IMG/VR virus record: IMGVR_UViG_3300025789_000006
Location: 1-53,156 of that record
Direction: 5' to 3' (one strand)
Source of the DNA: a virus
Length of the DNA: 53,156 nucleotides
The notes beneath the pieces were generated by a model. The model searched no databases. It saw nothing but the letters and a program-made list of their open reading frames with translations, and had not been told where the DNA came from. Shown one piece after another: positions 18,198 through 51,838 of this stretch (position 1 is the stretch's first letter; every line of letters begins with the position of its first letter). Position numbers and translations under genes: made by a program.

Positions 18198-18367
18198 TTA
18201 TTCTTTTTGGTCACAGCATGTGCCAGACCGCCAGATTTTTTACCTTCAGAGGAAGATTGACTTCCACCCTTAGGTTGCATTGAAGTGCCGTCAAGTTTTT
18301 CGCCTTGAGCGATACGCTTGTGTTGCGGCACATCAATGGTTCTCTGTTCGTAATCAGATGTTGCCAT
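18194..18367 (-). CDS. Small hydrophilic protein after portal
   Basis: A 57-residue, Lys/Ser/Gly-rich protein (starts MATSDYEQRTIDVPQHKRI, ends AVTKKNK). Its ATG lies within the last codons of the portal gene and its stop overlaps the next start, so it is translationally coupled on both sides. Probably disordered; function unknown. Confidence 0.65.
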   Translation of the reverse strand: MATSDYEQRTIDVPQHKRIAQGEKLDGTSMQPKGGSQSSSEGKKSGGLAHAVTKKNK

Positions 18368-20831
18368 TTGGAGCTCCTTGTGGTTGAGGTTGTGGCCCTT
18401 GTGGGGCCGGTGGTGTCACAGGCATTTGAGGTACCTGTGCTTGAGCTTGAGCCGCTTGTCGAATCGTCTCATGCGTCATCTTGGCGTTCTCAATGGCAAT
18501 CTTAGTCTGATTGTCCATCTGAGCTTTTTGTTGATCCAGAGCCAAACGAGCCTGAGCCAGTTGAGCGTCTTGCTGATCTTTCTGGGTCTTGCGCTGTGTC
18601 TCAGCCATGCTTGTCTGCTGTACCACTTGTGCATCAGGTGGTATTGGAGGTGGCTTGGGTTGACTGCGCTCTTGAGCCATTTGAATGATCTTCTGGAACG
18701 ACGGCATCAAGTCACCAAACACATCATTGACATCCAACATCACATGGGCGCCAATGGTCGTGAAGACCTTGTCGATGGTCGGTGTGAGGTTCGGATTATC
18801 GTAGTCGTCAATTGGCTTGCCGGTCATCTCTTGCACATAGCCATTCGAGCGGTTCAAGTACCACAAGGTCATGTGCTGTTTCAAATGCTCGATCAAGTTG
18901 TTGAGGTATGCCGGGTCTGCAAATGGGTTTTGGCCCAAGAACGGATTCATAGCAAACTGCAAGTGGTCTTGAATGTGAGCAATGTGATCTTGTTGGATGT
19001 ACGCATAGGCTGACTGGCCCACGAGCATTGCCGCATTCTCATCTGCTGAGGTGCGTTGCTCAGGTGCAGGCACATCATTCATGATGTCGTTGATGTTGGG
19101 CACTTTCATTTGCTTGAGCATGCGAGCAATCACTGGCCCAATCTTGAACTGATCAGGGAACTGCTGTGCCAACTGCAACACTGCCTGAGACTGCGCCATG
19201 CGCTGAGTCTCAGAAAAAATGTTGGGATCAGACACCGGCTGTACATCGGTGTTCTTGGAGAAGTCTTCGCGCGTGATCTCAAGGTCAGACACGATGTCTG
19301 CTTTTTGCATGTCGTCAAAGTACCAACGGTTCAGGCGGCACAGAATCTTCAACACACGAGCTTGTGATGCATGCAGGCGCGCATGGATTGATGAGTAGAC
19401 TTGAGAGCCTTGCTCGATCAATGCTTGCGTGGTGCCCACAGGCGACTGTGCATTCACATCGGCAATCTTCTCTTCAGCCGTCGTGACCACAGAACTCGTG
19501 GCTTTGTCCAAGAAGCCAAGCAGTTGGAAGAGCACATCGCTTGGTGGGTTGAAGGGCATCGGCATAGCGATCTGCCGGATGTCTTGCACACCGGGCGCGC
19601 CTTCAATCTCAATGATCTGGGTTACATCGACCTGCTGAGACTGCCCACTAATCTTCGCGCCCTTGAGCTTAAGCATAGTAGCGGCGTTGTTAATGTGAGC
19701 ACTGTCCAGTAGAGCGCGGAGAGAGCCAGTAAGAGCGGCAGACAGACCGCCAATGAGATGAGGTAGGCCAATAGCGTAAGCACCGCGCCATGGAATGAAT
19801 TTGAACTCCACGACCCAGTCAAGTTTGGTGAGCGTCTCATCTGCTTCCTCCCAGTTGCGGTACAAACCAACGACCTCGTTGTCGAGCACATCAATCATCA
19901 AGATGTAAGGCGCGTTTTTGCCCTTGCTGTGCTTGTCTTCTTCGAGCTCAAGCCATGTGTAGATGTGATAGACGGTGCGAATGCCGTCCTTGTTCTCTTC
20001 GAACTGCTTGCCTTCAATCTTGTTGTTGGCCTTGGCTACCTTGCCTTCATCAATCGTGCCGGATGCCTGCACATAGTTGATGTCGCGGTACATGCCCGAC
20101 TTGATGCGGCGCTCGAACTCGAATTGGGTGATCTCGTGAATCTCAGCGGCGCGCTGTGCCGTGTAAAAGTTGGTTGCCGCAAAGGGCAGGATCACACGGT
20201 CAATCGGCAGGAACTCGATGCATGGACGCTTCTTGTCTTCGTCGTACCACAGTTTCATGTACTGTGAGCCGCCGAGTGGCAGTTGGGTCAGCAGTTGTTC
20301 TTGTTCGTCGCGGAACTCTTCGATCTGCTCAGTGATCTGCCAGTTGAGGTACTCGACCTTGCGATCTGCCACCGCCGTCTTGAGATCGTCAACCTTACCA
20401 ATGATCTTCGACTTGACCGGGCCATCTGGTGGAAAGAGCTCTTTGATTGCGCGAGCGGCAAAGTCAACGCAACCCTCAGCCATGGCAGGATGCACGACCT
20501 TAGAGGCTCCCATAAAGGTTGCACCTCCGGGGGCATCATTGCCCATACCAGTCCGTTTAATACCCTCTTCATATTGTTTGTCGCGCAGTTCTCGTGCCTG
20601 CTTATCGCTCTCAAGTAAGTCTAAGTAATTGAAGACGATGTCCGACAAAACACCGGGATCAACAGAGTCTGCTAGGTTGTCATAGAACTCTGGGTTGAAT
20701 TCTGGGCCATCGTCAATGTCAACAATGGCTGAACCGTCTGGCAATTCGTCAGTGTCGAATGCAGGCATGTCCATCACAGCGGAGCCGTCTTCTTGCTCTT
20801 GAATGTTTAGGTCGTCGTCTTTTTCAGCCAT
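18354..20831 (-). CDS. Portal protein (P22-like)
   Basis: An 825-residue portal, the dodecameric ring at the packaging vertex. The length and order of segments match P22-type portals: an acidic N terminus, the head part with KLWYDEDKKRPCIEFLPIDRVILPFAATNFYTAQRAAEIHE, the wing and stem region with GLPHLIGGLSAALTGSLRALLD, VTTAEEKIADVNAQSPVGTTQALIEQGSQVYSSIHARLHASQARVLKILCRLNRWY, and a long Gln/Ala-rich C-terminal helix (about residues 715-800) that would form the barrel. The very end is Pro/Gln-rich and flexible. It is flanked by terminase and scaffold genes, the expected order. Confidence 0.92.
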   Translation of the reverse strand: MAEKDDDLNIQEQEDGSAVMDMPAFDTDELPDGSAIVDIDDGPEFNPEFYDNLADSVDPGVLSDIVFNYLDLLESDKQARELRDKQYEEGIKRTGMGNDAPGGATFMGASKVVHPAMAEGCVDFAARAIKELFPPDGPVKSKIIGKVDDLKTAVADRKVEYLNWQITEQIEEFRDEQEQLLTQLPLGGSQYMKLWYDEDKKRPCIEFLPIDRVILPFAATNFYTAQRAAEIHEITQFEFERRIKSGMYRDINYVQASGTIDEGKVAKANNKIEGKQFEENKDGIRTVYHIYTWLELEEDKHSKGKNAPYILMIDVLDNEVVGLYRNWEEADETLTKLDWVVEFKFIPWRGAYAIGLPHLIGGLSAALTGSLRALLDSAHINNAATMLKLKGAKISGQSQQVDVTQIIEIEGAPGVQDIRQIAMPMPFNPPSDVLFQLLGFLDKATSSVVTTAEEKIADVNAQSPVGTTQALIEQGSQVYSSIHARLHASQARVLKILCRLNRWYFDDMQKADIVSDLEITREDFSKNTDVQPVSDPNIFSETQRMAQSQAVLQLAQQFPDQFKIGPVIARMLKQMKVPNINDIMNDVPAPEQRTSADENAAMLVGQSAYAYIQQDHIAHIQDHLQFAMNPFLGQNPFADPAYLNNLIEHLKQHMTLWYLNRSNGYVQEMTGKPIDDYDNPNLTPTIDKVFTTIGAHVMLDVNDVFGDLMPSFQKIIQMAQERSQPKPPPIPPDAQVVQQTSMAETQRKTQKDQQDAQLAQARLALDQQKAQMDNQTKIAIENAKMTHETIRQAAQAQAQVPQMPVTPPAPQGPQPQPQGAPNGNI

Positions 20832-23149: not shown

Positions 23150-24583
23150 TCATTGCGAATAAGGGTTTTGACGCCCCTTCATGTTGTAAATCTCTGCGTC
23201 ACTGATGTCATCGGGTTCGAGCTCCTCACGGGGGCCGGGATCAATGCTGATCCACCCGGCGTCCCTCAAGTACCGCAGGGCCTGACTGATGCAGTCCACG
23301 AACTCATCATGGATTGTGCCCTCAGGGAATGAACAGATTTGTGACACCATGCCCTCGGCCCAGTCACGCACGAAGCCGGGGGTCTTGGAGCTCTCAGGCA
23401 CCCAGACGCGCCCTGCCTTGATGATGTTGGCGACGATGGACAGGCGCTGTATCTTGTCGGCCCGTCCGGGGTTGTAGGGCATGACCGGCAGGTGGGCGCG
23501 CTGTAAGTCTTGGATCAGGGAGATGCCTGCGCTCTTGTCTTCGATCAGGATCAGGTCAACGAGCTTGCGGGTCTTGCCTTCACCGTAGACCACCTCGAAC
23601 TCGCTCATGATCTTGGGGCGCAGGTCAGGGTACTGCAGGTGCTCTTGCCAACAGTCGATGATAAGCACCGACATGGCTCCGTCCTCTGGGCGATAGACGC
23701 CAAGGGTCATGTGGCCCGTGGGGTCGTTGTGGGTTTTGTCCGAGGTAGCGCAGTCCACCGACTGGATGATGTACTCGAACTTGGGGAAGGGCTTGTCTTT
23801 GGGCCAGAGCCTAAACCACTCACGGCGAACGATGCCGCCTTCCTCAGGGTCAATGATCTCAGCGTGAATCTCCTGCCTGCCGAGGTTGGTGCCCTCGTAC
23901 TGCAAAATCTGCTTCTGGAAGGAGGGCGCAAGGTTGTCCTTGTTGATGTAGGTCGATGCCTTGGTGATCACCACATCGTCGTTCTCACGGCTCAAGAGCT
24001 CCATGATCAGGGGTTTGGGCTTGGGCGTCGTGGTGGCGATGATGCGGGTTCGTTGGCCCAGACGCACCGCGAATTGAATCTGATCCCATGCGGCCTGCAG
24101 GTCATCGTAGGCGGCGAGCTCATCGAGCCATGCGCCATGCCACTGACCACCACGGAAACGCTCCGGCTCCGATGCCGGGATGCCCTTGATGAATGAGCCA
24201 TTGATGAGCCTGAGCTCGTGCAGGGCTTTGTTGTAGTCCTCGATCAGGGAAGGTGGGCACACATTGAGCAGGCCAGAGTCACCTTCGAAGCAGGTGCCAC
24301 GGATGTCGCCTGATGTGGGCGCGGAGACGAGCCATCGACTGCCGGGCATATCCCATGCCCACTCAAGTAGCGTCTCAGTGGCGGCGCGGGTCTTGCCGGC
24401 TCCACGGCCTGCGAGCATGAGCCAGATGTTCCACCATTCGCCTGCAGGCTCAATCTGGTGCTTGTGGGCGCCCTTCATCCACTTCATGCGCCAATTGATC
24501 ACCGTCTGGGCAATATTCGTCCGTTGGGCGTAATCCTCTTTGAGGGTGTCTTCGTCGTCAAGGATAAGGTCTACAACACTCAT
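23150..24583 (-). CDS. Terminase large subunit
   Basis: A 477-residue packaging motor: ATPase plus headful or site-specific nuclease. ATPase motifs: Walker A AGRGAGKT at residues 58-65, Walker B GAWLDELA at 150-157 with Asp154-Glu155, and the coupling segment IIATTTPKP near 181. Nuclease (RNase H fold) acidic residues: Asp277 in QSVDCATS, Glu348/Asp349 in LILIEDKSAG, and Asp426/Asp430 in HDEFVDCIS. The order and length fit the Terminase_6-type family. It follows the small terminase and an unknown gene with overlapping starts and stops. Confidence 0.96.
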   Translation of the reverse strand: MSVVDLILDDEDTLKEDYAQRTNIAQTVINWRMKWMKGAHKHQIEPAGEWWNIWLMLAGRGAGKTRAATETLLEWAWDMPGSRWLVSAPTSGDIRGTCFEGDSGLLNVCPPSLIEDYNKALHELRLINGSFIKGIPASEPERFRGGQWHGAWLDELAAYDDLQAAWDQIQFAVRLGQRTRIIATTTPKPKPLIMELLSRENDDVVITKASTYINKDNLAPSFQKQILQYEGTNLGRQEIHAEIIDPEEGGIVRREWFRLWPKDKPFPKFEYIIQSVDCATSDKTHNDPTGHMTLGVYRPEDGAMSVLIIDCWQEHLQYPDLRPKIMSEFEVVYGEGKTRKLVDLILIEDKSAGISLIQDLQRAHLPVMPYNPGRADKIQRLSIVANIIKAGRVWVPESSKTPGFVRDWAEGMVSQICSFPEGTIHDEFVDCISQALRYLRDAGWISIDPGPREELEPDDISDAEIYNMKGRQNPYSQ

Positions 24584-33470: not shown

Positions 33471-33543
33471 GGGGTGAAGGGGAGAATCGAACTCTCGCTG
33501 ACAGATTCACAGGCTGTCGTGCTACCACTACACTACCGACACC
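33471..33543 (-). tRNA. Degenerate tRNA-His(GTG) candidate
   Basis: Minus-strand sequence GGTGTCGGTAGTGTAGTGG opens a tRNA-like fold with a good D arm (GTGT/GCAC), anticodon loop CTGTGAA (GTG), T loop TTCGATT and a 3' end CACCCCA that would include an encoded CCA. The leading G and the C before CCA suit tRNA-His. Two mismatches in the acceptor stem, one at the base of the anticodon loop and one in the T stem suggest decay or a specialised use. Confidence 0.6.
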
Positions 33544-33552
33544 ATAAAGTGG

Positions 33553-33627
33553 CTGTGGTATTTGGAATCGAACCAAACTCATTCTCGGTTAACAGCCGAG
33601 CGCATACACCTTGCTTGCTCTACCACA
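33553..33627 (-). tRNA. tRNA-Asn(GTT)
   Basis: Minus-strand fold: acceptor TGTGGTA/TACCACA (seven pairs), D arm with a three-pair stem, anticodon stem CTCGG/CCGAG with loop CTGTTAA (anticodon GTT, Asn), T stem TTTGG/CCAAA with loop TTCGATT. CCA is not encoded. Middle gene of a three-tRNA cluster. Confidence 0.88.
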
Positions 33628-33658
33628 ATGGGATAGGGTCAATTTCGATGATGATTGG

Positions 33659-33730
33659 TCTGTGCGGTAGGGATCGAACCTACGACCTCGTGTGCCCAAG
33701 ACACGCGCGCTACCACTGCGCTACGCACAG
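33659..33730 (-). tRNA. tRNA-Pro(TGG)
   Basis: Minus-strand fold: acceptor CTGTGCG/CGCACAG, D stem GCGC/GCGC, anticodon stem CGTGT/ACACG with loop CTTGGGC (anticodon TGG, Pro), T stem GTAGG/CCTAC with loop TTCGATC. 72 nt, no encoded CCA. First tRNA after the cluster promoter. Confidence 0.92.
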
Positions 33731-39134: not shown

Positions 39135-40331
39135 ATGAAACAAGTCATTCAAGAAGAGGGCTCGCGCCCAATCAAAATTTGGACTGACGATGTAGAAGGA
39201 GAGGCGCTAACTCAACTTAAGAATTTGGCGCGTCTACCTTTTATCAACCATCATGGCGTGGTTTGCATGCCTGATGTTCATGCAGGAAAAGGCTCTACCG
39301 TGGGCACTGTTATTGCCACCGAGAAAGCCATCATTCCTGCGGCTGTAGGTGTTGACATTGGTTGTGGCATGAATGCTGTCAGAACCTCATTAAAAGCTTC
39401 CGACTTGCCCGAATCCTTGAAAGATATTCGCGCCCAAATTGAGCGCGACATCCCGCTGGGTGCAGGTGGTCGTTTACAGCGAGATGAAGAGGTCAACAAT
39501 CGGTTAGGTCGCCTTCCTAAAACATCATTCAATCTTTGCGAAAACCTCAACGAGATTGCCGGTGATTACTGGAAAAAAGCCGCGCCCCAACTTGGCACAC
39601 TTGGATCAGGCAATCATTTCATTGAACTTTGCATTGATGAGAATCAAGATGTGTGGGTCATGCTTCACTCTGGCTCTCGTGGCATTGGCAACATGATTGG
39701 GTCGCACTACATCGAAAAAGCCAAGCGTCAAATGGAAAAATTCTTTATCAGCTTGCCTGATTCAGACTTGGCCTATTTGCCTGAGGACACTGAAGATTTC
39801 AATGACTACATGGAAGCCGTTCAGTGGGCGCAAGACTATGCTTTGGAAAATCGAAAGTTGATGATGGAAGTTGTTTTGGTAGCGCTCAAAAAGCATATTC
39901 CAAAAGAATTCACGATTACCCAAGAGGCGATCAATTGCCATCACAACTATGTCGAAAAGGAGCATCACTTTGGACGAAATCTCTGGGTTACCCGTAAAGG
40001 AGCTATTCGTGCGAGATCAGGAGACTTGGGAATTATTCCGGGTTCTATGGGTCAAAAATCGTATATTGTCCGTGGAAAAGGTGAGCTTCAATCCTATTGT
40101 TCTTGTTCGCATGGGGCAGGACGCAGTATGTCCAGAGCTGAGGCTAAAAGGCGTTTCAGCATTGATGACCTCATCAAGCAAACCGAAGGTGTCGAGTGCC
40201 GCAAAGATGCGTCAGTTATTGACGAAATTCCTAGTAGCTACAAAGACATTGATCAAGTCATGGCGAACCAAACAGACTTAGTCGAAGTGGTTCATATTCT
40301 CAAACAAGTCATGTGCGTCAAAGGAGCATAA
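39135..40331 (+). CDS. rtcB: RtcB-type RNA ligase
   Basis: A 398-residue RtcB ligase, which joins RNA ends with 2',3'-cyclic or 3'-phosphate to 5'-OH using GTP and Mn. Active-site residues are present: Asp74 and Cys77 in VGVDIGCGM, His161 in LGSGNHFIE, His178 in LHSGSRGIG, His269-His270 in CHHNYVE, and the GTP-accepting His326 in SCSHGAGRSMSR. PDVHAGKGSTVG (46-57) and GSMGQKSYIVRG (303-314) are also in place. Length is normal. It lies two bases after the SSB-like gene and one base before the nuclease gene. With phage tRNA genes present, tRNA repair is the favoured role. Confidence 0.95.
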   Translation: MKQVIQEEGSRPIKIWTDDVEGEALTQLKNLARLPFINHHGVVCMPDVHAGKGSTVGTVIATEKAIIPAAVGVDIGCGMNAVRTSLKASDLPESLKDIRAQIERDIPLGAGGRLQRDEEVNNRLGRLPKTSFNLCENLNEIAGDYWKKAAPQLGTLGSGNHFIELCIDENQDVWVMLHSGSRGIGNMIGSHYIEKAKRQMEKFFISLPDSDLAYLPEDTEDFNDYMEAVQWAQDYALENRKLMMEVVLVALKKHIPKEFTITQEAINCHHNYVEKEHHFGRNLWVTRKGAIRARSGDLGIIPGSMGQKSYIVRGKGELQSYCSCSHGAGRSMSRAEAKRRFSIDDLIKQTEGVECRKDASVIDEIPSSYKDIDQVMANQTDLVEVVHILKQVMCVKGA

Positions 40332-41716: not shown

Positions 41717-43036
41717 CTACTTAGTCCAAGAGTCTGGTAAATGGCTCGCGCCCCACTTCTTGATTTCGGGCCAATTCTCATAAACATCATGCGCAAGGAC
41801 ACCGGCACCGGCTAACCCACCGGCAACGGCTGTCCCTGCCGCAATCTCAGGTGCCATAAGACCTGCCGCCGCAACCATAGGAGCGGCTTGTGCAAGACCG
41901 CCAAGCCCACTTACAGCGTGTTTGATGGCTCCAGTGGTGTCACCACCATGCCAAGCATCAGCGGCTTGTCCAAACTCATATGGAGCCGCTAGAGCCGCCG
42001 CAGGGCCACCATACTTCCTGATCAAGCGTCCACCGCTTTCCACGATGTCGCCAAGCATGGAACCCTTCGTCGCAATATTCTCAAGTCTTTGAGCGTTTGC
42101 AGGATTCATCTCTGCCGTGTTGGCGTTAAGGTTGCCCGTCTGTTGGGCTGACTTGCCAGTCAATCGGCTGACTTCTTTGCCTGTTGCTTGTGCGTTAGCT
42201 TTGGCGGCTTCCAACCGTTGAGTTGCGGCGTCACGCTGAGGCTGAATCTTGATCTCGGCCTTTGCCTTGGCGTCAGCCACCTTTTGCTCATAGGCAAGTT
42301 TGTCAGCCTCGGCTTTGTCCAATGCGGCTTGTTTGCGCTCCATCTGAGCCTTTTGCGCCGCAGGGTCAAGGGCCAACCCAGTCTCTTTCTCTATCGCTGT
42401 GCCGGGGGCAATTTCCTGAGTACGCAAAGAAGCCGCTTCATTCGCAGGAATGACGACTTTTTGTGTGTGCGACATGCTTGGAGAAGTTTTGTCAAATTCG
42501 TTTGGAACAAACTTGCCTTCATAGTTTTCTACTCCGGGGCCACCCTCGTGGCTGAATTCCAATTTGACCGGCTCCTTGGGTGGAGGCTCAGGCAGATCGG
42601 CAGGATCAATGTTCTTGTTCAGAGCTTCTTCGCTGTGCCAAAACTTGTGACCCAGTTCAGCTTCTGCCAATTCAGCCTCATTGGGCGCATGGTTCAAGAT
42701 AGCTTGATCAAGCGCTTTGTTGGTGTTGCGCACATTGATTGCATTGTTGCGAGCCGCATCAGGAATCATCGTTGCCTGATTGATTTTGTGAGCGGCATAG
42801 CCTGCGGCGCCACCACCCAAAACCTCACCAATGCCGGGGCCACCGCTAGGCGCCTGTTGATCTACTTTGATGGTGCCATAGTTCATCTCAGGCAAGCCTT
42901 TATAGCCTGCATCTGCGTTTCCTTGAGGCTCTTTGCGCACAACCTCTTCATTAGGCGCTAAGGCTTTTTTTTCCTCGCCATCTGCAGGAGTTTCTGCTCC
43001 ATAAATATCATTTAAGCCTGAAGAATACTTACCCAT
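41717..43036 (-). CDS. Putative internal virion (ejection) protein
   Basis: A 439-residue protein. N-terminal half: disordered and Pro/Glu/Ala-rich (ETPADGEEKKALAPNEEVVRKEP). Residues 215-310 are a long Lys/Ala/Gln coiled coil (AQKAQMERKQAALDKAEADKLAYEQKVADAKAKAEIK). Residues 340-425 have Gly/Ala-rich hydrophobic helices (GGPAAALAAPYEFGQAADAWHGG, MVAAAGLMAPEIAAGTAVAGGLAGAGVLAHDVYENWPEIKKW) that could insert in a membrane. This suits a protein ejected with DNA. Last gene before the late terminator. Confidence 0.65.
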   Translation of the reverse strand: MGKYSSGLNDIYGAETPADGEEKKALAPNEEVVRKEPQGNADAGYKGLPEMNYGTIKVDQQAPSGGPGIGEVLGGGAAGYAAHKINQATMIPDAARNNAINVRNTNKALDQAILNHAPNEAELAEAELGHKFWHSEEALNKNIDPADLPEPPPKEPVKLEFSHEGGPGVENYEGKFVPNEFDKTSPSMSHTQKVVIPANEAASLRTQEIAPGTAIEKETGLALDPAAQKAQMERKQAALDKAEADKLAYEQKVADAKAKAEIKIQPQRDAATQRLEAAKANAQATGKEVSRLTGKSAQQTGNLNANTAEMNPANAQRLENIATKGSMLGDIVESGGRLIRKYGGPAAALAAPYEFGQAADAWHGGDTTGAIKHAVSGLGGLAQAAPMVAAAGLMAPEIAAGTAVAGGLAGAGVLAHDVYENWPEIKKWGASHLPDSWTK

Positions 43037-44999
43037 TGTTTGCCCCCTTCTTCTTAGCGGCAGTTTGTTCTCTAAATTTCTTTACTTCGTTTTCAAGAGC
43101 TTGGTTATAGTCATCAATGATGGACTGTTGGCTTTTGGCGCGTGATGCGTCATACAAAGGCACAGGTGATTTGGAATCCAATACAAAATCAGGGTGAGTG
43201 TTGGTAATCAATTTTTGATGATCCAAATACAAATCACGGTTCATGCGTTGAGCCAGATTTGATTGACGAATATACAAACGCGCGGCGGCAGGTGAAGTCT
43301 CAGGATGAGCACTTGCATCAGCCAAAATACCTAGTTCAGCATTGCGAGCGGTGCTTGGGCTTACACCTGCTGATTTTTGATTGTTTAATGCCATCTGCGC
43401 TAAATTGCGATATACCTCTTGCGCAAAAGGAACTACCTCAGCAGGCAAAGAAGCTTGAGCAATTTTTTGCAAATTAACGCCGACTTGAGCATTGAAGTCT
43501 GCCAAATTCACATTCACGCCACCTTGAACCAATTGAGCCAAGCCAGACAATAATCCCTTACCGCCAAAAATACCCATGACTTGATCAAAGCGCGGGTCTT
43601 GTGCTTCAGACTCTAAGTTACTGATAGGGCGCATTACATTGGCATGCACTTGATTGCTTCCAGTAGCATTCAGGCCATCAGCATATGTTTTGCCTTGACC
43701 ATTCAAATAAGCTTGCGTTTCTTTAATACCGGCTTCTTGATTAGTGTAAGGATTGATGGGCGATGCATCACGCCAATTGGAAACAATCACCTCGCGCTTG
43801 CTTGGCTGTTTGGTGGTGTCTTCAGGCTTCTTGACTTGAGCAGTTTGTGCAGGAGCCTGAGCACCAGTTGTGTCGCGCTCCCAATGGTTGGGGTCGTACT
43901 GTGAGCTCTTGGGGTTTGTAGCCCATGCAGGCTGATGCCAACCCTTGTCGTCCAAAAGTTTTTTCTGATCGTCTGTAAGCTTTTTAGTGTCGATGTCCAT
44001 TGCATCGCCAGACAAGTGTTTGCCACCATTTGCGGCAACAGGCAAACCTTGCTTGGTGTACCAATTGCCATTTGCATCTTGGTGATCTTTCAGCGCATCT
44101 TGCTCTTCTTGAGTGCGGATGTTGCTGATGATTGGAACGCCTGCCTTGTGCAATGCATAGACATCTTCGCTTGCGCGCGCGCCGTTGGGCAACACATAAA
44201 TGTTCTTTGTTTGTGGCTGTGCTTGAGGGGCAGGAGCCGCAGGAGGTACAGCAGAAGGCAATGTGCGACCTGCGTTGTCACCGCCAATGTTGGCCTCAAT
44301 GCCGCCCTTATTGGGAACAACTGCACCTTGACCTTCTTGTGCATTGACAGTCGGGCCTTTATCGCCACCGGCAACATTGTCAGGAATAACGCCAGAGCCG
44401 CCACCGCCTGCACCGCCACCGGTGCCACTATTTGCACCAGTTGGGTATTTCCCTGTGTCTGGCAGGCCCATCTCATTGAGCGGAGGCATGGGCTCTCCAC
44501 GCGCTTGGTAGTTTTGCTTAGTGATTGCGATGTTGTTTGCAACTTCAGCGGCTCTGCCTGACTGGGATTTCAAGAGCATCTCACCGCGCTTGGGTGACAA
44601 GTTTGTAATCTCTTGAATTTCAGCAGGCGTGAGTTGACGGTTCTCTGTCTTTGCTTTGGTGACAATGTCTGCCGCTTTGGCTTCGTTGCCCAACAGCATG
44701 TTGGTCTGAGCTTTTGTGAGCTCCAGTTGGCTGACAGGAATTTGGTTTTGACGCTTCTCTTCAACCCAATCACCCAAGGCATCAGATGCACTACCCAAGG
44801 AGGCCACAAAACCGCCTAATTGGGGCTTGGCAAAGCCTGCCGCTACCTTGAACCAGTTTGGATGGTCATAGCGGTGCTGTAGGGCTTCTATGGCCTTGGA
44901 TTGGGCATCTCTGAGCTCCTGCAGGCGATCAGTATCCGCACCATACAAGTTGGTGTTTGACAAATCCATTGCCTTGGCTAAACCGCCGATATCTGCCAT
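43029..44999 (-). CDS. Internal virion protein with M15 peptidoglycan peptidase domain
   Basis: A 656-residue protein. Residues about 290-380 form a peptidase M15 (D-Ala-D-Ala carboxypeptidase/endolysin type) domain: SNIRTQEEQ, HLSGDAMDID (zinc ligands His and Asp of HxxGxAxD, near residue 328) and DPNHWE (near 370, with the general-base Glu usually before the last His replaced by Asp-Pro-Asn before HWE). This would cut peptide cross-links during DNA entry. N- and C-terminal parts are helical (LQELRDAQSKAIEALQHRYDHPNWF; YRNLAQMALNNQKSAGVSPSTARNAELGILADASAHPETSPAAARLYIRQ). The start at 44999 couples to the upstream gene by TAATG with GGGAGAA. Confidence 0.8.
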   Translation of the reverse strand: MADIGGLAKAMDLSNTNLYGADTDRLQELRDAQSKAIEALQHRYDHPNWFKVAAGFAKPQLGGFVASLGSASDALGDWVEEKRQNQIPVSQLELTKAQTNMLLGNEAKAADIVTKAKTENRQLTPAEIQEITNLSPKRGEMLLKSQSGRAAEVANNIAITKQNYQARGEPMPPLNEMGLPDTGKYPTGANSGTGGGAGGGGSGVIPDNVAGGDKGPTVNAQEGQGAVVPNKGGIEANIGGDNAGRTLPSAVPPAAPAPQAQPQTKNIYVLPNGARASEDVYALHKAGVPIISNIRTQEEQDALKDHQDANGNWYTKQGLPVAANGGKHLSGDAMDIDTKKLTDDQKKLLDDKGWHQPAWATNPKSSQYDPNHWERDTTGAQAPAQTAQVKKPEDTTKQPSKREVIVSNWRDASPINPYTNQEAGIKETQAYLNGQGKTYADGLNATGSNQVHANVMRPISNLESEAQDPRFDQVMGIFGGKGLLSGLAQLVQGGVNVNLADFNAQVGVNLQKIAQASLPAEVVPFAQEVYRNLAQMALNNQKSAGVSPSTARNAELGILADASAHPETSPAAARLYIRQSNLAQRMNRDLYLDHQKLITNTHPDFVLDSKSPVPLYDASRAKSQQSIIDDYNQALENEVKKFREQTAAKKKGANNG

Positions 45000-46621
45000 T
45001 ATTTTCTCCCACCGGGCAAGCCGCCAAGATGACGAGTTGACCTGCATCCAATACTGCCACCGCCTTTAGCGCTTACTAAACCACCTTCAGCGCAACCTTT
45101 GAACCAACATTTGACATCGCACAAAAGGTTAGAACAGCATGCAATACCTTTAATGAGTCCGGCACCTGCCGCCAATCCAGACAGAGGTGACATGCACATC
45201 GTTGTCTTGACACTGGTAGGAATCTGCGCGCCCTGCAACAAGCTTGAAAGCTTGGACAAGGTCGTGAATGGATAGCATTGTTGGTTTTGCTTGATGGTCT
45301 GGCATTGAGCACCCAGAGTCGCCAAAGCGTTGATACAAGCCAGATTCTGACCTGCCGCTTGTACGCCAAGAGAACCCATGCCTTGACCTGCCGCTGTGAG
45401 CGCGCGAGCCTGTTCTGCCGCCATCGTTCCGGCTGTTTGGCCTGCCTGCAGATTGGCTGTGTTGAAGCCCTGTTGAGCATTTGCCGCAGTAGAGCCCAAG
45501 TTTGCCGCAATTTGATTTGCCGCAGTTTGCTGTTGGCCCAAAGTGCCACCGGCGTTGATCAAGTTTTGCATCTGAGATGCAGTCAATTGACCTGTAGTGC
45601 CACCCAAAGTACCCAACAAGTTTTGTTGTTGTTGAGCCAATGAACCTGCAGTTTGACCTGCTTGCAACGCTGTAGATGCGCACTTTGCCGCCAAGCAACC
45701 AGTGGTGCCTGCCAAGCCTGCAAGCAAGCTTTGTTGCTGTTCGCCCAATGTACCGGCAGTCTGACCAAGCCCTGCGCAAATCTGTTGTTTCTGGCCTGCG
45801 GCAGTAAGAGCTTGACCGTAGCCTTGGTTTTCCATGTTGGCGATCTGACTGTTCAAGCATTGCATTGCGTTGGCCTCAACTTGGCCCAACACTTGAGCAC
45901 CACGCTGAGAACCAAATTGACCTGAGCCAACAGCCGCCGCAGTGGCTTGAGGAGCCAAATTCTGCTGAATGTTGCGGTTAGCAATGTCTGACATGTTTTG
46001 CACAGCAGACTGCAAATAAGGGCTCATGTAAGACTGAGCCAACTGAGCAGTGCAAGTGCCTGATACTTTGTTCAAGTAAGGCTGTGCCGCGCATAAACCG
46101 CCTCTTGAAGCGGCCTTGCAAATCAATCCTTGTGCTGTGCCTAAAATGTTTGTACCAAGAGCTTTGCTCAAATCAGGTTGAGCCGCGCATAGACCACCTT
46201 TAGCCGCCGCTTGTTGAATGTATGGGCTCGCCGCACCTGCCGCACACAATGCTGTGCCTTTGGCAATGTCAGGAGTTGCCGCCTGCACACCAGTGGTAGC
46301 CATGGCCTGATTGGCATATGGCTGAAGGGTTGACAGTGGGTTGGTGCTCGTGCCTGCGGTCAGGAAAGGAGCCGCAGAACCGGTGATGTTCTGTTTAGCC
46401 GCGCATCCCAACAAATTTTGAGCAGTTGCAAAGTTGCCCTGTTGGGCTCCAAAGTTTGTCGCGGCCTTACAAAAAGCCTCTTGTTGCAGGGGTTGAGCCC
46501 CTACGAACTGTGCGCCACACTGTGCCTGCTGACCTTTGGTTGCTAGGTTTTGAAGGTAGTTCGTGTAATACGACGGCGCACAGGTCGATTTATTTTGTGA
46601 GGACTGTAGTAAGTTTGCCAT
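44999..46621 (-). CDS. Cysteine-studded Ala/Gln/Gly-rich internal virion protein
   Basis: A 540-residue protein, mostly helical Ala/Gln/Gly sequence with repeats such as TAGTLGEQQQSLLAGLAGTTG and TAGSLAQQQQNLLGTLGGTTG. I count 23 Cys, scattered about one per 25 residues, several at places where comparable proteins usually carry Ala, Thr or Ser (for example KGGLCAAQP twice). The C terminus has a denser group (ACCSNLLCDVKCWFKGCAEGG). It lies between the M15 protein and the cysteine-rich giant, in the cluster of presumed ejection proteins. AGGGAACG ribosome site. Confidence 0.72.
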   Translation of the reverse strand: MANLLQSSQNKSTCAPSYYTNYLQNLATKGQQAQCGAQFVGAQPLQQEAFCKAATNFGAQQGNFATAQNLLGCAAKQNITGSAAPFLTAGTSTNPLSTLQPYANQAMATTGVQAATPDIAKGTALCAAGAASPYIQQAAAKGGLCAAQPDLSKALGTNILGTAQGLICKAASRGGLCAAQPYLNKVSGTCTAQLAQSYMSPYLQSAVQNMSDIANRNIQQNLAPQATAAAVGSGQFGSQRGAQVLGQVEANAMQCLNSQIANMENQGYGQALTAAGQKQQICAGLGQTAGTLGEQQQSLLAGLAGTTGCLAAKCASTALQAGQTAGSLAQQQQNLLGTLGGTTGQLTASQMQNLINAGGTLGQQQTAANQIAANLGSTAANAQQGFNTANLQAGQTAGTMAAEQARALTAAGQGMGSLGVQAAGQNLACINALATLGAQCQTIKQNQQCYPFTTLSKLSSLLQGAQIPTSVKTTMCMSPLSGLAAGAGLIKGIACCSNLLCDVKCWFKGCAEGGLVSAKGGGSIGCRSTRHLGGLPGGRK

Positions 46622-46624
46622 GAT

Positions 46625-49207
46625 TTACTTCGTTCCCTTTTTTATGTAATCAAGGGGAGACTTAGCCTTCGGTGGAATCTTAGACAGAGGAGCGTTGCGC
46701 TTATGAGCTCGCAACTTTTCACGCATGCCGTCCAAAATTTCTGCCCCTCGCTTATTATCTCCTTGTCCAAGCGCCGTGACAAACGCCGCAGGGAAGACAT
46801 ACTCGCCGTCAGCAATCTTGGCAGGCACAGGATTGGCTCCTGCAACGCCACCATCTGCATGACGATGTACGCGGTGAGGCACCTTGGTTCTAAAGCCATC
46901 AAGCACCTGCTTACCGGCCTTGCTTGAACCGTCGCCCAGTGCAGATACTGTCTCAGCATCCATCACATAGTCGCCGTCGTGAAGCATGGCAGGAATGTCG
47001 TCAGACTGTCCAGTACCACCACCGCAAGCGTAATACCCGGTCACACCAGTGATGAACTCAGGGTGGTGACCTTTGGGTGTTGCGCTATGGTAAGCCGCAG
47101 GCAATCCACCGCCTTCAGCATGGCCTGTGATGCCTTGATAAATGTGAGACAAGGGCGCATTGGTAAAATGTTGGCCTGAACCGCGATTCACCAAAATCTC
47201 AGGTTGACTGCATGCGAACTTTGGTTCGTATTTTGAAATGTCAAAAGCGTCATTTTTGGATTTTGTAGCCTCAGCAGTGGCGTCTTTAATGGCTTGAATC
47301 TTTTTGCAGATGCAAGTTTCTTCAGAGTCTTCAGTGCCACCACCAGAGAAATGATGGACTTGACCACCAGAGGCCAGACAGCCATATCCCAAACCTTTAT
47401 CAGGAGAGATTTGGCAGGCCATCACGCGCTGATTGACAGTGCCCAAAAGATTGCTTGAATCGCCAACTGCATTGGTAGTCAACTTAGCCAAGTTAGCAAT
47501 TTTGGCCTTACCACCACTTGCGGCATGGAACAAACCACCCTCGGCAAGGCAACCGTAGCCAAGACCTTTGCAAGGTGAAATTTGACATGCGGCAACTTTG
47601 CCGCTTGCGTTGCTCAAGCCACCAATGTTTTCACCGATGTTGCCAGTACCAAGCTTGGCAAGTTCAAGCGCTTTCTTAGCGCCACCGGCCTTCAATAGGT
47701 TGGCAACACCGCATAAGGCTGATGGGCCACCTTGACCTTTAGCAGAACCTTGAGCAGGCTTCTTGACAGGCTTGTGTTTTGCAGGCTTTTTGCCTGTTGG
47801 GCCTTTTGATTTCTTAGGCTTGCACTTGTCTGTACAGCAACATTGATCGCAACAGCAAGTGTCACAGCAACAAGTGTCGCAACAGCACATGTCGCAACAG
47901 CAGGTGTCGCAACAGCACATATCACAGCAACACATATCACAGCAACATGTATCGCAACAGCAAGTATCGCAACAGCAGGTATCACAGCATGCACAGCAAT
48001 CTGTACAGCAGGTATCACAGCAAGCTGTACAGCAATCTGTACAACAAGTCGTGCAATCGCATCCACAGCATGAAACACAGCAACCTACACAGCAACCCTC
48101 AGGGGTGCAGTCAGAAGAACATGGAGTTTCACAGCTTGGGGTGCAACCGCAAGGCAAGCAAGGTTCGCATGGTGTGCAGGTATTGCATGGAGCGCAGGGA
48201 TCAACACAGCATGGCAAGCATGTACAAGTAGTGCAAGTTGGGATGCAAGATGCACAGGTACAGCAGAAGCAAGGCACACAGCAGAATGGCGAGCAAACGC
48301 CGCATGCTAGGCCACCACTGCAGAATGTTGGGGTGCAGAAATTAGTTGTGCAAACACCGGGTGTGCAGGCGCCGGGTGTGCAAAGGCTTGGCATACAGCC
48401 TGTTGGAAGGCAAGTCGTGCCGGGCTGTGTGATGCAAGTTTGACCGGGGTTATAGCCTTTGTCACAGCAAATTGGTTGACAAACATCACATCCGGTTTGT
48501 GCGCATGGGCCAGAAATACAAGAGGTGTTGGGTTGGGTTATACATTGCTGACCGGGGCCATAACCCTTATCACAGCAACATACGCCGCATGTGCAAGGCA
48601 AACATCCGCATGCAGGCCCTTCAATACATGTTGTAGGTGTACACATGGGGGTGCAGGCGCATGCCATGCAAACACCACAAGGCTGACCAATGCATGTGCC
48701 GGGGTTACCTATGCAAGTGCCGGGATTGTATGGATTGTGACCGCAGTCAAAACTGCATCCAGAGGTGCAAACGCATGAACAGCATTCCATGCAACCTGCA
48801 CAGCACAAACCGCTTTGGTTTGTTGATCCAATGCATTGTTCACAGCCGCCGTAACAAGTATTGCAGGTATTGGCACATTCTCCAGTACCGCAATTATCTC
48901 CAACACAAGAAATACAAGATTCACATCCTACAGCGCAAGCGACGCATCCTGCCGAGCACAGGAAACAGGCAACACTGTCTACCGCGCATACTGCGCAAGC
49001 CGCATCACCTAAAACGCACAAGAAGCTTGTTGCGCCACCCGTGGCGACATCCAAGGCCAAGCTTGCAAGGGCTCCAATACCGCCGCCACCACCATAATGA
49101 TGAGCGACTTGACCGCAATTCAGAATGTCATCTGCTTGAGGTTGTGGGTCGTGTAATTGCGCGCCCTGATTGCGATTGCTATAACCGCCAAAAATTATTT
49201 TGCTCAT
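46625..49207 (-). CDS. Giant cysteine-rich internal virion protein
   Basis: An 860-residue protein. Residues 31-462 are extremely Cys-rich: I count about 131 Cys there, as CxxC, CC and finally about ten tandem copies of a five-residue CCCDx unit (x is Thr, Met or Gln). A Lys/Pro-rich hinge follows (KKSKGPTGKKPAKHKPVKK). The C-terminal half has two AC-Q-ISP-KGLGYGCL units (near residues 545 and 605) and two units of the form IPAMLHDGDYVMDAETVSALGDGS...LDGFRTK / VPAKIADGEYVFPAAFVTALGQGD...LDGMREK, which I recognise from internal or tape-like proteins of aquatic podoviruses. That shared frame shows the Cys region is truly coded. No relative known to me has such a domain. Confidence 0.82.
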   Translation of the reverse strand: MSKIIFGGYSNRNQGAQLHDPQPQADDILNCGQVAHHYGGGGGIGALASLALDVATGGATSFLCVLGDAACAVCAVDSVACFLCSAGCVACAVGCESCISCVGDNCGTGECANTCNTCYGGCEQCIGSTNQSGLCCAGCMECCSCVCTSGCSFDCGHNPYNPGTCIGNPGTCIGQPCGVCMACACTPMCTPTTCIEGPACGCLPCTCGVCCCDKGYGPGQQCITQPNTSCISGPCAQTGCDVCQPICCDKGYNPGQTCITQPGTTCLPTGCMPSLCTPGACTPGVCTTNFCTPTFCSGGLACGVCSPFCCVPCFCCTCASCIPTCTTCTCLPCCVDPCAPCNTCTPCEPCLPCGCTPSCETPCSSDCTPEGCCVGCCVSCCGCDCTTCCTDCCTACCDTCCTDCCACCDTCCCDTCCCDTCCCDMCCCDMCCCDTCCCDMCCCDTCCCDTCCCDQCCCTDKCKPKKSKGPTGKKPAKHKPVKKPAQGSAKGQGGPSALCGVANLLKAGGAKKALELAKLGTGNIGENIGGLSNASGKVAACQISPCKGLGYGCLAEGGLFHAASGGKAKIANLAKLTTNAVGDSSNLLGTVNQRVMACQISPDKGLGYGCLASGGQVHHFSGGGTEDSEETCICKKIQAIKDATAEATKSKNDAFDISKYEPKFACSQPEILVNRGSGQHFTNAPLSHIYQGITGHAEGGGLPAAYHSATPKGHHPEFITGVTGYYACGGGTGQSDDIPAMLHDGDYVMDAETVSALGDGSSKAGKQVLDGFRTKVPHRVHRHADGGVAGANPVPAKIADGEYVFPAAFVTALGQGDNKRGAEILDGMREKLRAHKRNAPLSKIPPKAKSPLDYIKKGTK
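47833..47997. repeat. 15-bp tandem repeats coding the CCCDx units
   Basis: About 11 imperfect copies of a 15-bp unit (plus-strand form CAACAGCAnRTRTCR) within the cysteine-rich gene. Third-position differences with conserved amino acids suggest selection for the Cys-Cys-Cys-Asp pattern rather than very recent slippage. Confidence 0.85.
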
Positions 49208-49575
49208 AATTTAATCATCCAGTTATAACCTGCGCGATCAGATTCCTTTACAGGAACATTTATCTGTCTACCAAGTCGTCTAAGTAAATTGATAATCCCG
49301 CCGTTGTCGGCTTTGCCGTACAAACGATGGATGCCGCGTCGCTCGATATTTCTAAAGAATCGAACCAATGTTCGAGCCAGAACGACGGGTGGGTCTTGTG
49401 TGAAAAGGTGGGCAGAAAATTCGCCGGGTGCGATCTTTTCCAAGAGAAGCGAGGTCTTGCCGCCGTGTAAAAGAATGCCGCCATCTTTGACGGTTTTGGC
49501 AACCGCGCCCATGACGAGATTGTGATCCAAGCCCCTTTGCTTGGAGTCGTGTGTTATGACTTCTGACGGTTTCAT
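49204..49575 (-). CDS. GNAT-like small virion protein
   Basis: A 123-residue protein (MKPSEVITHDSKQRGLDHN, then GGKTSLLLEKIAPGEFSAHLFTQDPPVVLARTLVRFFRNIERRGIHRLYGKADNGGIINLLRRLGRQINVPV). The strand-helix order and the final Arg-rich helix suggest an acetyltransferase-like fold, as in small internal virion proteins of T7-like phages. The ATG at 49575 follows AGGAG. It overlaps the Cys-rich gene start, in keeping with a core-protein cluster. Confidence 0.6.
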   Translation of the reverse strand: MKPSEVITHDSKQRGLDHNLVMGAVAKTVKDGGILLHGGKTSLLLEKIAPGEFSAHLFTQDPPVVLARTLVRFFRNIERRGIHRLYGKADNGGIINLLRRLGRQINVPVKESDRAGYNWMIKL

Positions 49576-49823
49576 TAAAAGTTCTCCTGTACTGGTGTGA
49601 CAGACATGATCCCTGTCATAGCCATTGCCCATTCTTGCCAGTTCGCATAACTTCTATGGTCTGGCACCCCAGACTGGACAAAATATCCAATCCCATTTAA
49701 TCCATCTACCCACTGCCTCCAGTTTTCTTCGGGCACATGGCCCAACTGGTTTGACGCAAACAGCTCTTCCATCAGTTTGTTGTACTGATCCCAAGTCATT
49801 CCTCGTGGGTCATAACTTATCAT
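49575..49823 (-). CDS. Small hypothetical virion-cluster protein
   Basis: An 82-residue protein (MISYDPRGMTWDQYNKLMEELFASNQLGHVPEENWRQWVDGLNGIGYFVQSGVPDHRSYANWQEWAMAMTG) with many Trp. It is of a kind I recall beside nozzle genes in podovirus-like phages. Its stop overlaps the next ATG (TAATG type coupling) and its start the nozzle gene end. Function unknown. Confidence 0.62.
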   Translation of the reverse strand: MISYDPRGMTWDQYNKLMEELFASNQLGHVPEENWRQWVDGLNGIGYFVQSGVPDHRSYANWQEWAMAMTGIMSVTPVQENF

Positions 49824-51838
49824 GGGTTTCCTGTTCCGCGAACATCGCCAGTTTCCACATTCAGCACAACACGGCCTAAGAAATAGTTACCGTTTTGGGT
49901 GTTTGACTCAAACCGCAACCGCATTTCACGGCGTTGTTCTTTTAAATCTATTTTAAGGGTAGACGGCTCAAAAGTGTAGGGCTCAGAGGCGATGTCAGTG
50001 TCGTCTGCATAGCCCTTACCCGTGACAATCATGTCCATCTGCCCAACTTGTTGAAAGTCAGGTTCTACGCGCTCCAAACGCGTCCATAAGTTGTCGCCAC
50101 CCTGAGGTGAACCCACCAAACCGGCAGAGGTGCCCAAGACATTTGTCTCAAAGGCAGAATAGATGGCATTGACATGGTTCAAATACACTTCATCGGTGCC
50201 TTGTTCATGCACCCACAAGTCGTATTGACCGGTGTCGTTTTGATTGTTTGCCGCCCAAATAGGCTTCTTGTACACCTCCGAGAAGGTGCCTGCAGAGCGT
50301 CGAGCGCCCGGTGCAGAGCCTGCGTCATACCAAATCTTGTCGCGCACATTGAAGACAATCGCGTCGGTGCATTCTGTGGCGTCGCCGCGTGGATAGAACC
50401 ACCAGATTTCACCCCAACGAGGCACTTTGCTCACCCACACTTTTTGACGCTGTGCGGTGTTGACATTGTCAAAGAACCAGTTCAGGTTTTGACTGTTGGG
50501 AACTTCTTGAACAACACCGTTGTACATCAAGAATCGGTCAGTGCCCACCCAGTAGTAAACGCCGTCGTATTCAATCACGCACGAGCTCGACATGATCGAA
50601 GACTGTTGGGTGATCAAGTCATAGCGCCAGTAGAGCGTCGATGTGCCCACATTCTGAGGCGCATAGGTCACGCGCACCACTGAGTCAAGTGTCCAGAAAA
50701 GCCCAGAGGGGGAGGTTGTGCCTCCCCGTAGAGGCAAACCTTTAATGACCTTGGTAGAGGCCACATTGTTGGCATTCGAGTCAGCAGATGTCCAGTCGTT
50801 GAAGTTGCCTGCGGCGCAGTTCTGAATCAGGCCGTTGTTGCCGTACACAAAGAGGTACGGATACAGCATCACAACACCACCAGACACGCTGATGTTGTTG
50901 TCAAAAGTCAAGGTAACAGTGGCTGATGCGGTAGCCGCGTTGTTCAAGACTACCGTCCACACGCCTGCGACCAATGAGGCAGACACGATCACCGTGTTGG
51001 CAGGGATGCCTGCACCAGTCACAGACACGCCGGGCCCCATGGCGACATTGGTCGTCGTAAAGGTCACATTCTTGGACATGTTGGTGGTGGTACCCGTCTG
51101 TGAAAAGACGCCTACAGGCGTCATTGTTGTGCCGGTAAAGGGGCCAATCAAAGGTCGGGTGTTGGTCGTGTTGTCGATGTGCTCAAGGTTCAAACCCGGA
51201 TGCGCAATCACATTGTTGTTGCCGGTGCCGTAGGGGTCGTATCCGGTGTCAAACTGCCACAAATTGAGGTCATTGGGGGTGAAGGCTGAGTTGGCAGTAA
51301 TAACGCCTGCAAAGCCCGATCCTGAGCCGCCAATGCTTGCGTTGCTGATCGTGAAGCTCTCGCCATACGGGTATGTGGCTGTGCCGCCGTTGGTGATGGC
51401 AACTGAGAACACTTGGTTGCTCGACACGACCACAGTCGCCAAAGCACCGGTGCCCGTCGTAGTAACAAGTGGCACATTGGTATAGGTGCCGTTCACATAG
51501 CCAGTGCCTTGTGTGACGATGCTCACTCCAGTCACAGAGCCAACAGGATTGATGGCAGTTGGGCCAGAGCCCACAGCATCATCGTTGTCGATTGTCCACT
51601 GCTGAATGCTGTCGCTGAACCCTGAGATCACCCATGTGTGACCATCTTGGGACTGCAAGATCATGCCTCGGCTGATGCCGGGCGCGTTCACGAAGGACGC
51701 AGTGTAGCCACCCATCTTGCGTGGGCGCCCGTATTGGAAGCGACACCATTCACCGTCGATGTAGCAAGGGGCCGCAAAGAGCGTACCGTCGCGCTGTATG
51801 CCGGGTGGTATTGCAAGGATGGCGACTTTTGCAGTCAT
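49820..51838 (-). CDS. Tail nozzle/stabilisation protein with inserted beta modules
   Basis: A 672-residue protein resembling P22 gp10/T7 nozzle-type proteins: MTAKVAILAIPPGIQRDGTLFAAPCYIDGEWCRFQYGRPRKMGGY, then LYPYLFVYGNNGLIQNCAAGNFNDWTSADSN, RGGTTSPSGLFWTLDSVVRVTY, EYDGVYYWVGTDRFLMYNG, and the C-terminal MRLRFESNTQNGNYFLGRVVLNVETGD. Between residues 100-195 and 235-310 are two Gly/Thr-rich beta insertions (VTGVSIVTQGTGYVNGTYTNVPLVTTTG; MSKNVTFTTTNVAMGPGVSVTGAGIPANTVIVSAS) of Ig-like or fibre type. Lies next to the adaptor across the contig junction. Confidence 0.82.
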   Translation of the reverse strand: MTAKVAILAIPPGIQRDGTLFAAPCYIDGEWCRFQYGRPRKMGGYTASFVNAPGISRGMILQSQDGHTWVISGFSDSIQQWTIDNDDAVGSGPTAINPVGSVTGVSIVTQGTGYVNGTYTNVPLVTTTGTGALATVVVSSNQVFSVAITNGGTATYPYGESFTISNASIGGSGSGFAGVITANSAFTPNDLNLWQFDTGYDPYGTGNNNVIAHPGLNLEHIDNTTNTRPLIGPFTGTTMTPVGVFSQTGTTTNMSKNVTFTTTNVAMGPGVSVTGAGIPANTVIVSASLVAGVWTVVLNNAATASATVTLTFDNNISVSGGVVMLYPYLFVYGNNGLIQNCAAGNFNDWTSADSNANNVASTKVIKGLPLRGGTTSPSGLFWTLDSVVRVTYAPQNVGTSTLYWRYDLITQQSSIMSSSCVIEYDGVYYWVGTDRFLMYNGVVQEVPNSQNLNWFFDNVNTAQRQKVWVSKVPRWGEIWWFYPRGDATECTDAIVFNVRDKIWYDAGSAPGARRSAGTFSEVYKKPIWAANNQNDTGQYDLWVHEQGTDEVYLNHVNAIYSAFETNVLGTSAGLVGSPQGGDNLWTRLERVEPDFQQVGQMDMIVTGKGYADDTDIASEPYTFEPSTLKIDLKEQRREMRLRFESNTQNGNYFLGRVVLNVETGDVRGTGNP

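Follow-up and report, generated by a model that had tools for sequence, protein, structure and literature searches.

A cysteine-packed gene pair in the probable DNA-ejection cassette of uncultured short-tailed phages

Introduction

How short-tailed phages build a trans-envelope channel from proteins that pass a narrow tail is an open question, and it is raised anew by a locus in the IMG/VR virus record IMGVR_UViG_3300025789_000006, a stretch of 53156 bases referred to here at its whole length as the window. Two neighboring genes of this locus, designated A and B, encode proteins packed with Cys in the window virus and in dozens of uncultured relatives; in places up to two residues in three are Cys. 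Phage delivery proteins are normally near Cys-free, and the A/B pair suggests a new chemical locking or loading of the DNA conduit. Judged from their sequences, A and B are most likely a Cys-armed ejection module in a cassette that normally lacks Cys, because B is probably related to proven ejection proteins. The podovirus ejection cassette is of a known kind, and the Cys module is, as far as our searches reach, undescribed in the literature that they covered.

The cassette and the survey of its relatives

On the minus strand the genes follow in the order nozzle, an open reading frame (ORF) of 82 amino acids (aa), a 142-aa ORF, A, B, C and D, and they overlap or nearly touch one another. This order parallels 12-13-14-15-16 of T7. 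Cys makes up 16.4% of A and 4.3% of B and is absent from C and D; the remaining large genes of the window have 0-2.6%.

49820..51838, minus strand: tail nozzle protein, upstream of the cassette (phrog_3287, E 2.3e-24; PDB 8zkk 'nozzle gp16', E 4.5e-8)
49204..49632, minus strand: 142-aa ORF at the place of T7 gene 13, with a 4-base overlap (ATGA) with the start of gene A
46625..49207, minus strand: gene A, 860 aa, 141 Cys, most likely the Cys-dense protein of the ejection cassette
44999..46621, minus strand: gene B, 540 aa, 23 Cys, helical, partner of A and probable remote relative of SU10 gp21/gp22
43029..45047, minus strand: gene C, 672 aa, 0 Cys, next gene of the cassette; an inner ATG at 44999 may be its start
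41717..43036, minus strand: gene D, 439 aa, 0 Cys

Relatives were collected by three scans of viral contigs, one scan of genome contigs and a phage collection, giving 158 sequences with B, the window included; two of the viral scans contributed the best 80 of at least 575 loci and the best 80 of 195. The search patterns held Cys in one viral scan and in the genome scan, no Cys in another viral scan, and optional Cys in the third. Ninety distinct B cores were tallied, of which 79 were full-length after 11 incomplete ones had been dropped. ORFs of the relatives were taken from the first ATG, so that the length and N-terminal Cys of A may be overestimated (for example in contigs L006, L008 and L012).

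The cysteine-dense domain of gene A

The frame of A is open across all 860 codons, and 1000 shufflings of its bases gave a mean of 30.7 Cys and a maximum of 47, as against the real 141. A sequence-only reading of this DNA had put about 131 Cys into residues 31-462; exactly 131 were counted there, the first Cys of the protein being residue 31. Its 'about ten' tandem CCCDx units are nine in tandem (starting at residues 411, 416, 421, 426, 431, 436, 441, 446 and 451), followed by CCC at residues 456-458, and a lone CCCDK stands at residue 210.

47822..49117, minus strand: Cys-dense region, A residues 31-462, 131 Cys, predicted to be disordered (predicted local distance difference test, pLDDT, about 29-44 by block)
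47843..47977, minus strand: nine tandem CCCDx units, A residues 411-455; the 15-base tandem array spans 47846-47983
47717..47821, minus strand: Lys/Pro-rich stretch, A residues 463-497, directly after the Cys region
46703..47062, minus strand: C-terminal part with two DGDYV/DGEYV repeats, A residues about 716-835, delimited by alignment, tape-measure PHROG matches and the model

Several relatives of A likewise have a basic stretch behind the Cys region. In the AlphaFold model of A (mean pLDDT 41.7) the Cys region is without confident structure, and folding is limited to the two DGEYV repeats. That these repeats are a known phage motif, as had been recognized from sequence alone, is borne out by 32 of 34 A proteins, which match a 'tape measure' PHROG; a PDB profile search with the A C-terminus found nothing beyond the DGEYV motif of one tape measure protein (E 0.00095) and a match due to chance. 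The densest stretches of 100 residues in A hold 66 (L135), 64 (L033) and 63 (L042) Cys, compared with 53 in the window, and we know of no other phage protein in which 66 residues in 100 are Cys.

Some A proteins also carry repeated segments of the type VTVTGKK/VVVTGQR (L112, L115, L009, L010 and L063); at least one such segment was found in 11 of 89 A proteins and none in B, C or D. We take these segments to resemble the TonB-box motifs found in outer-membrane receptors. Along the A proteins of L112 and L115 they take turns with clusters of Cys.

So unusual a domain might be an artefact or a neutral expansion, produced by slippage of TGY-codon repeats, by mis-assembly or in a wrong frame. In favor of this, the 15-base tandem array makes up part of the domain, and the domains of L011 and L023 differ by 12 synonymous and 27 nonsynonymous codons (Cys kept at 114 sites, 3 of them TGC/TGT swaps, and one-sided at 6) in two contigs whose surroundings are 97-99% alike and whose A proteins, of 815 and 844 aa, are identical outside the domain; an assembly error in the repeats of these two contigs is possible. 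Against it, gene A occurs letter for letter in two other contigs, L003 (IMG dataset 3300025401) and L005 (3300025383), and the Cys domains of L033 and L135 differ by 57 synonymous and 22 nonsynonymous codons, with 19, 10 and 63 differences at codon positions 1, 2 and 3. In the whole of A from these two, 29 of the 95 aligned Cys pairs are TGC/TGT swaps and Cys is one-sided at only 3 sites. Moreover, the trait recurs in 51 different B and many A proteins, and the Cys counts of the two genes covary. An artefact is therefore scarcely credible, and the earlier claim that the region is not a frame artefact stands on the identical copies and on the L033/L135 Cys codons, which differ almost only synonymously.

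Four pairs were compared codon by codon. The window differs in the Cys domain from L011 by 86 synonymous and 143 nonsynonymous codons (Cys kept at 107 sites, 35 of them swaps; one-sided at 27), and from L023 by 91 and 156 (kept at 108, 38 of them swaps; one-sided at 27), the aligner favoring Cys matches and thus flattering the kept-Cys figures of both pairs. A clear synonymous excess is confined to one pair of the four, L033/L135. The domain is thus both Cys-conserving and quickly changing, partly through repeat turnover.

With 7 stops in frame +1 and 22 in frame +2 within codons 31-462, the overlapping ORFs rich in Ala/Val or in Gln appear to be by-products; the +1 frame with its many Ala and Val and the Gln-rich antisense ORF (47859-48443) were discarded as shadows that the Cys codons cast. 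A reassigned meaning of the TGY codons was considered as well and dropped, the Cys excess being limited to A and B, and no formal test was made.

The composition of the domain bears on its chemistry. In the 20 densest A windows the CxxC spacing is enriched (0.233 versus 0.124 in shuffled sequences, and 0 of 500 shuffles reach 0.233), while CxC is depleted (0.185 versus 0.233 shuffled); His makes up 0-1.6% and aromatic residues 0-5.7% of the Cys regions in 20 A proteins. The main rival to an ejection-linked crosslinking role is a metal-thiolate module, in which the domain would take up a large number of soft metals, among them Zn(II), Cu(I) or Fe-S, while still in the reducing cytoplasm. It would either fold up as a compact bead or export metal with the virion, and B would share the sites. 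The CxxC enrichment and the scarcity of His and aromatic residues are consistent with it, and each CCCDx offers four possible ligands, three Cys and the Asp. Metallothionein-like sequences keep their Cys while the remaining residues change, and the window shows the same when set against L011 and L023. CxC is common in metallothioneins, however, and it is the depleted spacing here; a Pfam search with A gave no family match, and hence none to a metallothionein profile. By itself, metal binding would also leave unexplained the absence of single Cys in B, the Cys-free C and the paired Cys of D (see below). Metal binding and a disulfide network were the two chemistries named by the sequence-only reading. 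We regard a metal-thiolate module of the kind described as rather unlikely; the two further alternatives ranked after it, a thiol shield and a non-ejected structural role, are taken up where their evidence stands.

All-or-none cysteine in gene B

The number of Cys in the 79 full-length B proteins is bimodal: 28 have none, 51 have 7-42, and none has 1-6. In A the number ranges from 0 to 141 across relatives (n = 84). Three positions of window B are nearly fixed among the 51 Cys-rich proteins.

45335..45337, minus strand: codon of B Cys429, Cys in 49 of 51 Cys-rich B and Asp in 24 of 28 Cys-free B
45194..45196, minus strand: codon of B Cys476, Cys in 43 of 51 Cys-rich B
45044..45046, minus strand: codon of B Cys526 in the C-terminal tail, Cys in 47 of 51 Cys-rich B with 3 gaps; Cys-free rows are poorly filled here

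Cys-free B mostly have other residues or a gap at these three positions. Elsewhere the residue moves about: 184 alignment columns hold Cys in at least one of the 51 proteins, and several relatives, such as MW202545, end B in a Cys tail of its own. The Cys of B are thus few fixed and many wandering. Long helices make up the model of B (mean pLDDT 67; predicted template modeling score, pTM, 0.32). A PDB profile search with B had no match, and Foldseek with the model found nothing in PDB at E 0.001 or better and, in BFVD, three uncultured phage proteins without a useful named function.

Great sulfur density and loose choice of positions are what a reactive-thiol or antioxidant shield would show, in which A and B would be a sulfur store in the head that absorbs peroxide, oxidants or electrophiles, or reacts with host thiols at entry. 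The turnover of the extra B Cys over 184 columns fits such a store, as does the length of the A Cys domain, which varies between near-identical phages. Nevertheless, the near-invariant Cys of B (429, 476 and 526) point to defined places, and one and the same dataset can contain relatives of both kinds, with and without Cys (e.g. 3300025357, 3300032223 and 3300032242), so that bulk habitat alone does not set the Cys state. A shield is judged improbable.

A and B share the trait. Among 47 phages with a Cys-rich B, 40 have at least 3 Cys in A; among 26 with a Cys-free B, none does. Within the main clade of Cys-rich B the counts of the two proteins still covary once the tree is allowed for (r 0.59, p 4e-5, 41 contrasts; 28 contrasts of the same sign and 9 of opposite sign), the test covering this clade alone with 42 of the 47 Cys-rich rows. 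Because of this covariation, A and B seem to share one chemistry. The sequence-only reading was right that the Cys-dense domain is real, and had overlooked that the trait is shared with B and persists through a lineage, the all-or-none state of B and the denser relatives.

C and D of the relatives were taken by position alone, as the next two ORFs of at least 250 aa after B. C has no Cys in 69 of 69 relatives; of 62 D proteins, 56 are without Cys and 6 have exactly 2. In five of these six (L008, L026, L040, L115 and L175) the two Cys lie 11-12 residues apart in a shared motif C...NI(D/N)CG, and they are perhaps a structural disulfide, perhaps of the SLT lytic transglycosylase domain, which was detected in 8 of 33 D proteins. 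A PDB profile search with C gave one chance match (E 0.038).

Two short contigs, L101 and L102, have a Cys-rich B, one of them also a Cys-rich A, and are binned in two betaproteobacterial metagenome-assembled genomes, a weak hint at betaproteobacteria as the host group. No record with an assigned host and a Cys-rich A or B came out of tblastn searches with these two proteins. Their only finds were the Cys-rich MW202545, from Manatee Spring and with no host given, which is probably a metagenome assembly, and four remotely related Caulobacter phages; the one of the four that was read, GB2A, is Cys-free in A to D. The same search with window D found nothing.

Origins of the cysteine-rich state

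A tree of B was built from 283 alignment columns in which no row has Cys. On it, well supported branches force three changes to account for the Cys-rich state, and the Cys-rich proteins fall into a main clade of 46, the single protein of L055, and a group of four (L088, L089, L091 and L093). Rooting on the Cys-free Caulobacter phage, which has a long branch, implies three gains; a root within a Cys-rich group implies two gains and one loss, and a single gain costs more changes. B of L055 (6972-8234) is a mosaic, closest to Cys-free L062 (58%) over the first 200 residues and to Cys-rich L008 (61%) over the rest, and each half has 9 Cys, as if a Cys-rich tail had been gained by recombination and the other half had then followed. 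Since L055 is a mosaic, the main clade and the group of four make the best case for separate origins. In the latter, B has 13-16 Cys and A has 0-1, showing that B can carry the trait without A.

Probable kinship with ejection proteins and the cysteine-free norm

Gene A most likely lies in an ejection-protein cassette, in line with the sequence-only suggestion that its Cys region may be an ejection-protein domain: 9 of 75 B proteins match PHROG 4287, 'DNA ejection protein', at best at 1.2e-5 (Cys-rich L151), and the Cys-free B of L063 matches it at 6.4e-4. SU10 gp21 and gp22 belong to this family, with scores of 1e-117 and 1e-109. In the sections of the SU10 study covered here, gp20-24 are present in virions and missing from the genome-release intermediate, which identifies them as ejection proteins by experiment (PMC9509320). 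B is probably a remote relative of SU10 gp21/gp22, and the kinship is called remote and only probable because window B stays below threshold and profile-profile comparison is weak.

This kinship bears on another possibility, that A and B are not ejected and stay in the head or tail as scaffold, plug or tip, stabilized by disulfides in the extracellular particle. The named-family matches of the A C-terminus, solely 'tape measure' PHROGs, would suit such a role. The probable relationship of B to gp21/gp22, which leave the virion, and the place of A and B between the nozzle and the SLT gene argue against it, and a non-ejected role appears quite improbable.

In the phages checked, ejection proteins are practically free of Cys. 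None is present in T7 gp15 and gp16, P22 gp7, gp20 and gp16, SP6 gp35-37, phiKMV ORF35, gp36 and gp37, or SU10 gp20-24, and T7 gp14 has 1; in five phages 15 of 16 ejection proteins thus lack Cys, a regularity observed in the few phages that we chose rather than a published definition. The nozzle, terminase or maturase genes counted in P22, SP6, phiKMV and SU10 have 3-7. This near absence of Cys in the cassette is violated by A (141) and B (23) and kept by C and D. A protein that unfolds and then refolds in an oxidizing space seems unable to tolerate one or two odd thiols, whereas many seem to be usable, and with this the Cys-free rule fits the bimodal B.

A conduit cured by periplasmic oxidation?

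We tentatively favor the reading that A and B have been re-equipped as the cysteine module of a podovirus DNA-ejection cassette and crosslink the conduit by periplasmic oxidation. The stricter form, a two-protein conduit cured through Cys and set by host periplasmic oxidation, in which A and B must cross-link and C and D must not, is more doubtful. In such a scheme A would be a disordered Cys-dense domain between its N-terminus and the DGEYV C-terminal part, followed in several relatives by the basic linker, and B a set of long predicted helices carrying a few nearly fixed and many come-and-go Cys. Both would be packed in the head with reduced thiols and remain flexible, and both would exit early through the tail. 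The host periplasm would then oxidize them, and disulfides within and between A and B would set the conduit into a covalent sleeve, stiffening or sealing it, while C and D would travel on through peptidoglycan and the inner membrane. C and D would be Cys-free because they would otherwise be caught by the crosslinking. For comparison, after ejection of T7 proteins gp14 is found in the outer membrane and gp15 in the periplasm, according to the sections of PMC8954989 covered here.

Periplasmic curing is preferred because of the two linked Cys-rich genes, the split between A/B and C/D, the paired Cys of D and the enrichment of CxxC. Several results weigh against it. First, oxidation would have to come late because a pre-crosslinked protein could hardly pass the tail. 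Second, disulfides alone could hardly satisfy the CCC runs and a density of 66 Cys in 100 residues, and the CCC runs suit metal clusters too. Third, a fixed set of intramolecular disulfides in B is unsupported, because Cys columns show no partners (107 co-changes versus 159 expected, no excess) and the Cys-rich counts have no even-number bias (27 odd and 24 even of 51). Fourth, window B has no PHROG 4287 match and no family hit at threshold, and window D has no detected SLT domain and no family hit. When profiles were compared by hhalign, B gave weak results with SU10 gp22 and gp21 (probability 0.5-3.5%, E 0.012-0.12) and showed no similarity to SP6 gp35 or P22 gp7. Fifth, T7 gp13 has 3 Cys and an annotation as internal virion protein, so that the Cys-free rule is not total for internal proteins. 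Lastly, the Pfam matches of 53 further ORFs in the window include no thiol-oxidoreductase family.

Cysteine curing, if true, would explain why Cys counts are all-or-none and also why ejection proteins follow a Cys-free rule. These phages, whose versions of the same proteins have either zero or many Cys, are a natural set that makes the channel question testable, and the Cys domain, at 66 residues in 100, is a possible source of cross-linking or metal-binding polymers.

Comparison with known systems

In SU10, a Kuravirus, the cassette is similar and the B proteins of L151 and L063 match the PHROG 4287 family of gp21/gp22 over most of their length, but gp20-24 have 0 Cys and B has up to 42 plus a Cys tail. 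With T7 gp14-gp15-gp16 (and P22 gp7-gp20-gp16) the cassette shares the gene order after the nozzle gene, and in some relatives an SLT domain in the last gene. The T7 and P22 proteins differ in being Cys-free save for one Cys in T7 gp14, and B showed no similarity to P22 gp7 or SP6 gp35 (the T7 gp14-16 sequences were not compared). A shares its C-terminal DGD/EYV repeats with 'tape measure' proteins (PHROG 6090 and 24; PDB 8zdo chain S), but the match is confined to these repeats, A has 860 aa against 1151-1853 model positions, and A has the Cys domain. The DGEYV motif is common to some tape measure proteins and does not define function. As for the long helical rod with which a tape measure protein sets the length of a long tail, the model of A is disordered and of low confidence, and the genome has a short-tailed-phage nozzle and an SU10-type adaptor.

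Metallothioneins and keratin-associated proteins are extreme in Cys content, low in complexity and poor in aromatic residues, and in these respects A is like both. It differs in giving no Pfam match, in its depleted CxC and enriched CxxC, in a density of up to 66% and in its place in a phage cassette. No description of this was found among the papers listed by searches of the open PubMed Central (PMC) literature for Cys-rich phage ejection, virion or tape-measure proteins, subscription literature lying outside the search. The words 'cysteine' and 'disulfide' are absent from the main text of PMC8954989, PMC11784390 and PMC12633501, and in the covered sections of PMC9509320 'cysteine' occurs once, as a mass-spectrometry setting.

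Other features of the window

The window looks like the genome of a short-tailed phage, as indicated by its matches for adaptor, terminase, portal and nozzle. In a comparison of the 142-aa ORF at 49204..49632 with T7 gp13, no similarity was found.

59-703: SU10-type adaptor (PF24175)
18354-20831: portal (profile match)
23150-24583: terminase (profile match)

The scan of the 53 further ORFs against Pfam gave single matches to Cpn10, a 2OG-Fe(II) oxygenase, a YdaS-type toxin and histone-H1-like HC2. An RtcB tRNA-splicing ligase is encoded at 39135-40331 on the plus strand (phrog_1075, E 1e-154), and the same phage has genes for tRNA-His, tRNA-Asn and tRNA-Pro at 33471-33730 on the minus strand.

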